DNA of 55,145 nt, taken from Naegleria lovaniensis. Its lineage: Eukaryota; Heterolobosea; Eutetramitea; Acrasida; Naegleriidae. The position numbers and the translations under genes are program-made. A model generated the notes under the pieces. That model was not told the DNA's origin. It was given only the letters and a program-made list of their open reading frames with translations, and did no database searches. Of this stretch, positions 22,059 through 25,560 are shown piece by piece (within the stretch, counting starts at the first letter, position 1; every line of letters begins with the position of its first letter). The DNA is taken from contig NW_025407895.1 of the NCBI RefSeq assembly GCF_003324165.1, positions 1 to 55,145 of the forward strand. Direction: 5' to 3'.

Positions 22059-22139
22059 GGAAGAGTGACCGAGTGGTTATGGTGCCAGATTCAGGTTCTG
22101 GTGGTTCGCGCCTCCCGGGTTCAAATCCCGGCTCTTTCA
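22059..22139 (+). tRNA. tRNA-Leu (anticodon CAG)
   Basis: A class II tRNA of 81 nt. The acceptor GGAAGAG pairs with CTCTTTC (one G-T wobble), with discriminator A. The D stem is ACC/GGT with a GAGTGGTTAT loop. The anticodon stem CCAGA/TCTGG encloses TTCAGGT, giving anticodon CAG (Leu, CUG). A long variable arm follows (TGGTTCGCGCCT), then the T stem CCGGG/CCCGG with TTCAAAT. The B box GGTTCAAATCC is perfect. No intron is present. The gene lies between the broken Cys-rich gene and a transposable element. Confidence 0.94.
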
Positions 22140-22230
22140 AAATTTTGATCTAATTTGTGTCACCGGCTCTTTCAAAATTTTTGATCTAATTTGTGTCACC
22201 GGCTCTTTCAAAATTTTTGATCTAATTTTT
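22128..22230 (+). repeat. Tandem reiteration of the tRNA-Leu 3' end plus flank
   Basis: A 35-36 nt unit starts with the last T-stem bases and acceptor strand of the tRNA (CCGGCTCTTTCA) and runs through AAAATTTTTGATCTAATTT. It occurs at 22128-22162, 22163-22198 and, truncated, from 22199. Copies differ by one T in the T run and at the tail. The second and third units carry a tRNA 3' half-stem without a tRNA body. Confidence 0.9.
22143..22146 (+). terminator. Pol III terminator of the tRNA-Leu gene
   Basis: A T4 run begins 4 nt after the discriminator base. The downstream repeat units contain T5 runs in the same position, which could serve as back-up terminators. Confidence 0.6.
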
Positions 22231-22449
22231 GTTAAAATTGATTTTTTGCTGTTGTGCTTTTCGTTTAAGTGCGTTCGTTTTTTTTCAAATTTTTCTTCCA
22301 ATTCCAATCAAAACGAATCTCATTTTTTTTAAAACGAACGGCATTCAAATCCAATGAGGGGTGGAAGAAATCGCCCATCCTAGCACACAGCTAAAAATTT
22401 GATTGCATCTGGATAGTAATTTCCAGAGCGTTTTGGAAATGAGGATTTC
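22231..22449. other. Flank between tRNA repeats and transposable element
   Basis: AT-rich sequence with long T runs on the left, then about 110 nt of more mixed composition up to the element's insertion site. No gene is recognised. Confidence 0.4.
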
Positions 22450-22458
22450 TTGGGCGGG
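22450..22458 (+). repeat. Target site duplication, left copy
   Basis: TTGGGCGGG lies immediately outside the left terminal inverted repeat. The same 9 bases in the same orientation lie immediately outside the right one. Confidence 0.8.
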
Positions 22459-22501
22459 GAGGAGGTAGATTTTGGCGACTAACGACTGGCGATTTTCGCC
22501 A
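22459..22501 (+). repeat. Left terminal inverted repeat of the element
   Basis: It begins GAGGAGGTAGA, then TTTTGGCGACT, and after a 7-nt insertion AACGACT continues GGCGATTTTCGCC. Its reverse complement recurs at 23641-23676, with 3 mismatches in the outer 22 nt and lacking the 7-nt insertion. Confidence 0.85.
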
Positions 22502-22631
22502 GGTGCAATTGGCGAGCACGCCAAATACCAAGCGTTGAATTGGCGAACTCGCCGGGTCCTCAATTTGAATTGGCGAACTCGCCACCCTTAAAAATGAATT
22601 TGGCGAATTTTCAAAAAAAAATATCTGAACA

Positions 22632-23413
22632 TCAAAACGATGCTGATTTACGTCCGTAATTACATGCTTCTTTGAACTGCTTGCTCAACGAGCGGTTATT
22701 GAATTGGTTTAACGCGCCCCGTCTCAATCTTCCAGATGCTGGTGAAGGAGGAACATTGTTCTCTGGCTCTGACTCAGAGGATTGACTGTCCTCTGAGTCC
22801 TCGATGACTCGTTTTCTCTTGGTACTTCCGTTGCTTTTAGTACGTGGCTTCTTAGGTGTTTCAGATGCAAGTGCACTGTTGGATGGTGTTGTCGGAGAAT
22901 CTATTTTGCTTGGTTGAAATTGTGTTGCAGTATGAGGTAAGTTGTGCTGGCTGCTATTTGTTGAGTTGACTTTCTCTTTTTCCTCTTGGTTATTCCCCGC
23001 ATCATCAAGTAAGTCTTCTTCAAGATCCTCGTCTTCATCAAAATCCTCATCTTGTCCATCATTATCATCATCATCTCCTTCTTCATAATCCTCGTCCTCG
23101 TCCTCATCATAAGATCCTTCCAAATAAGTAACCACCTGCTGTCTTTCTTCGTTTTGAATGTTAGATACAAAGTTTTGGACAGCTTCAAGTGAAGTAGTTG
23201 TTGATTTCAAGCCTCTTGCTGTTGTGTCTGCAGGTCTAGAATCATATACATCCTTCTTTTGCTTCTTACGCTTATTTCTCCTTCCTTCAAACAGAAAAAT
23301 CTGTTGACTGCCAAAAAATCTTCTTGAATCATCATAGTGGTCTCAATAAAAGCATTTCCGTTGTGAGTTGGAACAACAGTAGCATTCAATACCTCTTGCA
23401 CATTAGTATACAA
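22632..23413 (-). pseudogene. Interrupted gene for an acidic protein inside the element
   Basis: The longest frame (down to the stop at 22632) encodes about 190 residues: a Glu/Asp-rich tract (DEDEDEDYEEGDDDDNDG), an NLS-like basic patch (STKRKRV), a Ser/Glu/Asp run and a basic C-terminus. The frame is open further upstream, giving FFGSQQIFLFEGRRNKRKKQ and KKDVYDSRPADTTARG. It meets a different frame near 23320 at a T6 run, where LYTNVQEVLNATVVPTHNG and IETTMMIQE are encoded. The joined product would be a nuclear-looking acidic/basic protein. I do not recognise a family and see no DDE transposase motif. It lies wholly within the terminal repeats. Confidence 0.4.
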
Positions 23414-23640
23414 CTCTCAGATATTACAATTAATATTTTATTATTCTCAACGGTAACAATAAAGTTTGGAGGCAATCACAACGATTGGATGATTTGGCTT
23501 TGAATTGGCATTGTAGTTTTTGTAATCAGCCAAGTGTGTAATTGGCGAATGGCGAATATGGTTGTGTATAATTGGCGAATTGCGATTATGGTAGTGTGTA
23601 ATTGGCGACTGGCGTCTAACAGTAGTGTGTAATTGGCGGT

Positions 23641-23676
23641 TGGCGAAAATCGCCAGTCGCCAAAATGTACCAACTC
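23641..23676 (-). repeat. Right terminal inverted repeat of the element
   Basis: Read on the minus strand it begins GAGTTGGTACA, then TTTTGGCGACT and GGCGATTTTCGCCA, matching the left end apart from 3 substitutions and a 7-nt gap. Confidence 0.85.
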
Positions 23677-23685
23677 TTGGGCGGG
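23677..23685 (+). repeat. Target site duplication, right copy
   Basis: TTGGGCGGG directly follows the right terminal repeat. Removing the element and one copy would restore a continuous flank of GAGGATTTC, TTGGGCGGG, CTGGACTCG. Confidence 0.8.
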
Positions 23686-24699
23686 CTGGACTCGCTGAAG
23701 CGGCTGATTGCTAATAAAAAAATTTTTATTTTAAAAAAATGAAAAGCATTCGCCAACGTGGCCACTAACAAGTAAATTTGCTGCACGTTTCTCGCAAACA
23801 AGGCAACACAATTAATGCACCAAGAAGCATCGGCATTTCATTACCTCACACTAAAACCTAAAGAGTCGAAGAACTATTCATATCAATAATTTTCGAAATG
23901 TGATTAATTTTTGGATTTGAAACTCAGGTGACGTCGATGATGTCAAAGATTGGACCAAGTTTTGACTGCTGTGAAGAGTGGAGAGAAATACGCTTCCAAT
24001 TTGGTTACTATTCACCTTGGTTTGGATGAGGATTGGGAGAAAACAAATTCGGTGGTGGCCCGTCTAATTCCAAAATCAACGTACACCTCGAATAATACAC
24101 GTGAGTGGATAAATAAGAACATCAAGACGTCAGTTAAATATACATGGCTCCATCGTTGTACACTATGATCTACAATTTGAAAATTGCAGAATTAGATGCA
24201 TTGTTGAATTCAGATTGTGAAACTCCTCACTTTGAATTTTTAAGATTTTATAGAATTGGAAAAAATTGGAGAATGAAGATGATTTCGAAAAGCTTGCACA
24301 AGAAGACAACAACGAAATGTAGATCATCATCAATATTCCATCTGGGTAAAAGATACTGAATGCGAAGAATATGCGTTCATGCAACTAAAGTCACCAACAA
24401 TGATCATTCGGAATGTTTGACGTTGTAGTATTCCCAACCAAAACATCAAGCGTATTACATAATACCGAAGTGACAACTAATTCTTAGATTTATTGTTCAA
24501 ACATTCCGTATTGAACGCAACAACATTGTGGAAAATGAAAAAAATTTTGGGATTGTTTGGTGGCTATTGTGGCTGGAGTTGCTGCAATTAAGCAGTATTT
24601 TTGCAACCGTACCATCCGGGGTAACAGCTGGATGGACGATTTCTCCCCTCCTAAGAGTATTAACTGCACAAACTGAAAATCCGACCACAAACGAATGAA
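23686..24699. other. About 1 kb without a recognisable intact gene
   Basis: Short frames occur (for example at 23950-24168 and 24144-24359) but none is recognisable or long enough to support. A stretch near 24560-24700 (TVPSGVTAGWTISPLLRVLTAQ) is in an open frame just upstream of the reverse transcriptase remnant and may belong to it. I read the region as decayed mobile-element or intergenic sequence. Confidence 0.4.
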
Positions 24700-25560
24700 G
24701 GGAAGTTGTGACAATGCATGGGGATGGACATGACACAGAGTTTGATTACGCCCCAGTTGACGAGAACGAAATCGTCACAAGAAAAGACCTTTATTCGTGG
24801 AAGCTAAAGAGAACAGGTCTCCGCACTCAAGTAATTCAGGACATTCAAGGGTTGGCATTAATGGTATCAGACGCAGCTAAATGTAAAGACAATCCTGATC
24901 AGACCATGTTTAAGAAAATGCCACTCAACTCACATCATCTGTTAGGATTCCAATTCGAAGGAAACATCTTCGAATTTCTCTGCCTCCCTTTCGTCTCGCT
25001 CCAGCGCCAATTATTTTCACAAAGATATTCAAGGACATAATCATTGTTTGGAGAAGGAACGGAATGATGGTTTATGTTTACATAGACGATACTGGCCTTC
25101 TCTCTACAAGAACTTTGGGACCATATTATGACCATAATTCTCGACCTAATGTTCCTAAAGGTTGGCTGCTTCAATAAGAAAAATGCATCCTCATAACCAT
25201 TCACCGTCTCAGAAAGGATGTGTTGTGGTCCAAAAGAGAAGTTGGAAAGCATCTATGAGGATCAACAGAGGAGCCAAGTAGGATCTCGAAACTCTTCAGC
25301 AAAGTGTGCAAGAGAATATTGGAGTTTGTTTCGAATTAGATACACCAACCCCAATCGTCGTCAATTCAGCCCCTTCAAGCTTATGGAATTGCAAACTCCA
25401 ACATTTTGGTTGGCAAATTCGATCAGACAGACGAAACACAGACTCATATCAACCAGAAGGAACTTCTAGCGGTCCTCTACTTTTTCCGTCATGCAGTTAC
25501 CCTCAAAACACCTATTTCGAGTTCAGAGGAGACAACACAATACAGAGGAGTATATTTATC
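24700..25560 (+). mobile_element. Degenerate reverse transcriptase/RNase H remnant (DIRS/Ty3-like)
   Basis: Pieces of a retroelement polymerase lie in successive frames. HHLLGFQFEGNIFEFLCLPF is followed, after a frame break near 24993, by LAPAPIIFTKIFKDIII, RRNGMMVYV and the catalytic YIDD (25079-25090). A further broken stretch GWLLQ-stop-EKCIL matches the usual strand after the catalytic box. At 25445-25474 HINQKELLAV is the RNase H signature of DIRS/Ngaro and Ty3/gypsy elements. Frame breaks and stops show it cannot encode an enzyme. I saw no integrase, tyrosine recombinase, LTR or split repeat, so the order is unresolved; DIRS-like is favoured by the short LPFxLAPAPIIFTK form. It is a cellular retrotransposon fossil. 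Confidence 0.72.

Follow-up and report, generated by a model that had tools for sequence, protein, structure and literature searches.

The 55,145-nucleotide stretch of Naegleria lovaniensis DNA analysed here (hereafter the window; contig NW_025407895.1, positions 1 to 55,145) contains a 1.2-kb segment with inverted ends, placed between two identical 9-bp sequences. This locus raises the question of whether the segment arrived by transposition, and further what it carries and what kind of enzyme moved it. The features of the segment are collected in Table 1.

The 9-bp direct repeat that had been described in a sequence-only reading as abutting the inverted repeats on both sides was found to be exact to the base (TTGGGCGGG). 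Directly inside its two copies lie inverted ends of 27 nt (22459-22485 and 23650-23676) that are 81% complementary, and an additional inverted pair, perfect over 19 nt and shifted in register, is formed by 22483-22501 and 23641-23659. The chance that two 9-mers at a spacing of 1000-1500 are identical is about 1.2e-5 when counted in the 55-kb window (46 of 3,879,900 position pairs). The reported iteration of TGGCGA at the ends also holds. The motif recurs in arrays with a spacing of 30-31 bp, and the 1.2 kb of the element hold 11 of the 15 forward and four of the nine reverse copies counted over the whole window. At the transposase-3' end the repeat unit is 19 nt long and present three times (spacing 31 and 30), and at the transposase-5' end it is 30 nt long and present four times (spacing 30, 30, and 31).

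Table 1. Features of the element in the window, with positions counted from the first letter of the window.
Feature	Position	Strand	Remarks
Element, complete, non-autonomous TIR element	22459..23676	- (transposase sense)	1218 bp
Left target site duplication, TTGGGCGGG	22450..22458	.	Single copy at the C10 empty site
Right target site duplication, TTGGGCGGG	23677..23685	.	Perfect match to left, 9 bp
Transposase-3' end	22459..22608	-	Terminal GAGGAGGTAGATTTTGGCGACT and TGGCGA subterminal repeats; common to the C27 and C34 copies
Transposase-5' end	23534..23676	-	Subterminal repeats and terminal GAGTTGGTACATTTTGGCGACT
Transposase C-terminal remnant	22635..23282	-	216 aa, 96% identity to the C27 copy; acidic and basic tail
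Upstream piece of the transposase remnant, other frame	23273..23410	-	46 aa, 89% identity to the C27 copy
Stretch unalignable to the C27 copy	23411..23533	.	Origin unexplained; no second genome match

The flanks of the element were joined with one TTGGGCGGG and searched against the genome. Of the 21 places that matched, two were the window's own two flanks and ten covered one side only, while the remaining nine cross the junction (C28, C25 twice, C5, C26, C40, C10, C16, and C37), most of them with small length differences. Since the joined flanks match other genome places across the junction, the element is judged to be inserted into a copy of a dispersed repeat. Of the nine, C10 was the one examined letter by letter; all 41 of its 41 bases agree with the joined flanks, and it holds a single TTGGGCGGG. 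The empty sites are paralogous copies of the dispersed repeat, rather than orthologous sites from other strains, and from these alignments the insertion can be regarded as close to proven. A target site duplication that abuts terminal inverted repeats on either side, and empty sites with a single target copy (here paralogous, and with letters from C10 only), are both what a cut-and-paste TIR DNA transposon leaves.

The genome searched for copies was the assembly containing the window (30.69 Mb in 97 contigs). A second complete copy of 1263 bp was found at C27 with a perfect 9-bp duplication of its own, ACAAGTTTG, and in the shared part it differs from the window element at 17 of 946 gap-free columns. 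Further copies with the same ends and different flanking repeats had been named beforehand as what would support a transposon, and the C27 copy is such a case. At C34 only a 3' half is present, of which 399 bp align with C27 at 99.7% identity. The same 5' end was seen alone at C3 (L004 1501-1577), C5 (L005 1501-1545), and C11 (L007 1496-1541), with matches of 77, 45, and 46 bp, respectively. The genome search gave no 3' partner for these solo ends, and no convincing 9-bp duplication was seen beside them by eye. The TGGCGA subfamily is thus of low copy number, with two complete copies found. Such a low number would suit the reading that the repeats flank an ordinary host gene by chance and that no transposition took place. 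However, this reading is refuted by the junction-spanning matches of the joined flanks and by the empty site at C10, while the different duplication at C27 and the family of related elements also speak against it, so that it is next to impossible. The earlier description of a TIR element bearing the signature of transposition is consequently borne out by the 9-bp duplications, the second copy with another duplication, the related empty sites, and the repeated subterminal motifs. Counting the related families treated below, seven of the nine complete elements for which both flanks were read have a perfect 9-bp duplication (two of two of the TGGCGA type, four of five autonomous, and one of two other non-autonomous elements).

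The interior had been taken for an interrupted host-like gene, and the element, accordingly, for a possible Pack-MULE-like carrier. Neither proposal stood up. The translated sequence identifies the interior as the C-terminal part of the transposon family's own transposase, homologous to a protein of elements with related ends. The C27 copy has a continuous open frame of 356 codons on the transposase strand, and residues 21-229 of this frame match the C-terminus of a 697-aa ORF with 48% identity over 209 aa (E 1.5e-55); the six genomic places that give this match belong to copies of the 2528-bp element described below. The remnant in the window corresponds to amino acids 141-356 of the C27 frame (96%) and, in a different frame, to amino acids 86-131 (89%). 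A gap of 37 bp in the alignment of the window with C27 is located at this upstream piece.

Pack-MULEs (PMC8277862) resemble the window element in being non-autonomous TIR elements with a protein-coding-like interior, but differ in that the interior here is transposase rather than host gene. Capture of a host gene fragment, carried between the TIRs, could be argued from the lack of a transposase-domain match in the window copy, from the interior being unlike C27 at 23411-23533, and from two weak non-transposon matches of the protein search, at C29 (E 6.7e-5, 34%) and C5 (E 0.04, 33%). However, tblastn did not recover the former with E allowed up to 1, and the latter sits in the acidic tail and is gone after low-complexity masking. 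A query covering the unalignable stretch (23405-23540) found itself alone in the genome, and the genome search thus gave no captured fragment with a parent copy elsewhere. With the homology of the interior to the protein C-terminus of transposons with related ends, the collapse of the two weak matches, and the unmatched stretch, capture was rejected as highly improbable.

A second alternative is that the interior is a maintained gene, such as a domesticated transposase tail, and not a decaying remnant. The open frames of 356 codons in C27 and 216 aa in the window are in line with this. Against it, the window and C27 differ by eight non-synonymous and two synonymous changes over 215 codons, numbers that are too small for a test and give no sign of purifying selection; the frame is broken in the window copy, and the C27 frame lacks the part bearing the presumed first D, second D, and CxxH. 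Maintenance is therefore quite improbable. The preferred reading is that of a deletion derivative, as a transposase remnant lies between conserved ends. An autonomous element with TGGCGA ends was not found in the genome search, the assembly having gaps, and a sister family was found instead; the direct autonomous parent is, as far as the sequence matches go, missing from the search results.

This sister family consists of a 2528-bp element with five full copies (C12, C22, C30, C49, and C61) that encode an identical 697-aa protein. Their DNA is 99.84-100% identical, with one alignment extending some bases past the element. Because the copies are nearly identical, the family appears to be young and to have moved very recently. 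Additional copies at C45, C4, and C62 are interrupted by runs of N or by a contig end. The ends are GAGTTGTTATATTTTGGCACC and GAGGACATACCTTTTAGCACC, and four of the five full copies have perfect 9-bp duplications, while the one at C30 matches at six of nine flanking positions. The 2528-bp element shares with the window element the terminal GAG..(G/T)TA..TTTTGGC-type ends, the 9-bp duplications, subterminal repeats about 30 bp apart (5'-side spacings 40 and 31, 3'-side spacing 31), and the homologous transposase C-terminus. The asymmetry of the ends, GAGTTG at the 5' end and GAGGA at the 3' end, is common to both subfamilies and has the same orientation relative to the transposase. They differ in that the repeats of the 2528-bp element are of the TGACACTTGAGTG type, while those of the window element are TGGCGA, and in that the former has five full copies with an intact ORF, while the latter holds a frame-broken remnant whose identity to the 697-aa protein, given above, refers to the C27 frame in the shared part. 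An autonomous copy with a MULE/DDE transposase had also been named as possible support. An intact sister family was indeed found, but its ends have diverged, the protein identity is limited to 48%, and the protein has no MULE match in Pfam.

Two side observations concern C45 and C62. The reading frame at L037 3-785 (C45) terminates in a zinc-ribbon-like CxxC...CxxC stretch and by eye resembles a TnpB-type protein. The sequence flanking the C62 element end on the right has 76-83% similarity to window positions 24217-24617, and hence the C62 element also seems to be inserted into a dispersed repeat.

Shorter relatives are more numerous. The pattern GAGTTGNTANATTTTGGC occurs at 86 places with at most two mismatches, versus 32 for the reversed control. 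The match is exact at 37 of the 86, five of which belong to the TGGCGA subfamily (C3, C5, C11, C27, and C73). Pairing of 5' and 3' ends gave at least 23 non-autonomous relatives of 1083-1194 bp, 22 of them within 1181-1194 bp and one, at C30, of 1083 bp. Their alignment with the autonomous element covers its nucleotides 1-219 or 1-214 (94%) and, in 22 of the 23, nucleotides 2341-2528 (91%), the one at C30 matching 2475-2528; the interiors of the 23 have no match to the autonomous element. The flanks of two were read, giving a perfect 9-bp duplication at C46 and none at C66. In L056, an example of the 1.18-1.19-kb relatives, the longest stop-free stretch of the interior is 89 codons. Searching the genome with this interior gave 35 matches, mostly at the family's own copies, together with partial ones such as those at C3 (89% over about 125 bp) and C40 (74 and 81%, over less sequence), which may represent relics or a source. 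A rearranged non-autonomous relative at C74 (G000) has its 5' and 3' parts in opposite orientations, 24713-24932 (-) and 25144-25333 (+).

What kind of transposase this is can be approached from the duplications, the domain searches, and the order of the presumed catalytic residues. The duplications of hAT, P, and Dada elements are shorter than 9 bp. For MULEs, target site duplications of 8-11 bp are given in the relevant part of PMC6446971, a range that includes the 9 bp seen in the family of the window element and in that of the 2528-bp element. The searches of Pfam, NCBIfam, and PDB (phmmer) gave no convincing family match for the 697-aa protein; in Pfam there were just two unrelated matches below threshold and no MULE match, where the HMMER filters discard most matches above an E of about 0.1. 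Its N-terminus is rich in C and H by eye and has no Pfam zinc finger. Relatives were also sought in viral and prokaryotic collections, in which none of the 48 and 66 pattern matches, respectively, was confirmed by tblastn.

The genome does contain MULEs recognized by PF10551, at C11, C20, and C31 (L017, L018, and L019), which all exceed the cut-off in a genome profile search. In a separate Pfam scan C11 was over the PF10551 cut-off and C20 just under it, C31 being outside that scan. The elements at C20 (2456 bp) and C31 (2455 bp) have the ends GAGGGGAGT and are 99.8% identical in DNA, and C11 is a diverged copy. Their duplications are of 8 bp, AATATTGC at C20 and a run of A at C31, the latter being weak evidence. 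They resemble the 2528-bp element in size, in ends starting with GAG, and in the order of the DDE motifs as placed partly by eye, but differ in the length of the duplication and in otherwise different TIR sequences, and hhalign gave no significant profile similarity between the two transposases.

Genuine membership of the window element in the Mutator (MULE/MuDR) superfamily, as part of a divergent lineage that Pfam does not reach, is considered likely. Besides the length of the duplications, this is favoured by the motif order of the 697-aa protein (D276, D352, C384xxH387, and E473), which is close to that of the PF10551-positive C11 protein (D284, D352, C373xxH376, and E482), the first D and the last E of this comparison being picked by eye. 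In a local alignment of the core with the C11 and C20 proteins, D352 falls opposite their second D and GCFIH opposite their GCQFH, and the core score was reached in one of 300 shuffles for each of them. On the other hand, the whole-length score was equalled in 15 and 20 of 300 shuffles, the 697-aa protein is not among the three PF10551 matches of the genome, and the TIRs are short and imperfect. The hhalign probability was 0.2%, obtained with shallow alignments of just two and three rows, and neither this comparison nor Pfam detected a MULE/MuDR DDE domain. The proposal that 9 bp fits Mutator-like elements is hence made plausible by the duplication length and the motif order but is not shown by the domain and profile searches. 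Since Pfam, NCBIfam, PDB, and the profile comparison gave no MULE domain, we do not claim membership; that the element works like a Mutator-like one is plausible from its sequence features, and the 9-bp duplications, the related ends, and the D-D-CxxH-E-like motif order favour a Mutator-type chemistry. A more doubtful possibility would make the window element and the related 2528-bp element the first representatives of a DDE transposon lineage that split off deeply. This lineage, perhaps sister to the MULEs and equipped with a transposase type peculiar to it, would have been very recently active in a heterolobosean amoeba, in view of the five full copies with identical protein and the many non-autonomous elements beside them.

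MULEs with some of these traits have been described from other protists. In the sections of PMC2725143 and PMC6446971 devoted to them, TvMULE of Trichomonas is given TIRs that are short, at 20-38 bp, and one ORF (629 aa in TvMULE1), while EMULE-Ei1 of Entamoeba is given TIRs of 187 bp and an ORF of 456 aa. As compared by description, they are like the families found here in having duplications in the 9-bp range, and TvMULE is so also in its short TIRs and single ORF, but the 697-aa protein, unlike them, has no detectable MULE domain.

Taken together, the window element is very probably a DNA transposon that has lost internal sequence, carries a broken frame, and is not autonomous. It would belong to the low-copy TGGCGA-ended subfamily, sister to the apparently recently active 2528-bp autonomous family, and moving by cut and paste now or formerly. 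A DDE-type transposase supplied in trans would bind the spaced subterminal repeats and pair the element ends, and cleavage would then occur at the GAG...CTC ends. Insertion at staggered breaks followed by fill-in would give the 9-bp duplications. The 2528-bp enzyme may at present be able to mobilise the window element, with the caveat that the subterminal repeat sequences differ between the two.

The window element is ordinary in kind, and the interest lies in its apparently young autonomous relative, the transposase of which is not recognized by the standard libraries. What is documented is a transposon system, of which the window holds a dead carrier and the genome an intact and apparently young autonomous relative, along with many non-autonomous partners, duplications, and empty sites. 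The subterminal repeats of the two subfamilies differ in sequence, but their interval of about 30 bp and the asymmetry of the ends are retained; this is a testable case of co-evolution between a transposase and the sites that it binds. Being native and young, such a transposon might further be used for tagging in this lineage, for which genetic tools are scarce. Among the literature matches listed, no Mutator-like family in Naegleria appeared in titles or abstract openings; Repbase lies outside this scope, and absence from print is not claimed. In the portions of the publications that bear on the subject, DNA transposons as a class are given as 1.25% of the N. lovaniensis genome (PMC6125883), Kolobok is mentioned in Naegleria (PMC9587614), and Naegleria is named for its TET enzyme only (PMC12730594).

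To the left of the element, at 22059-22232, lies a tRNA-Leu (CAG) gene whose 3' end continues into a tandem array with 2.9 copies of its unit. This unit, 36 bp long, consists of the last bases of the tRNA repeated (CCGGCTCTTTCA...) and a spacer.
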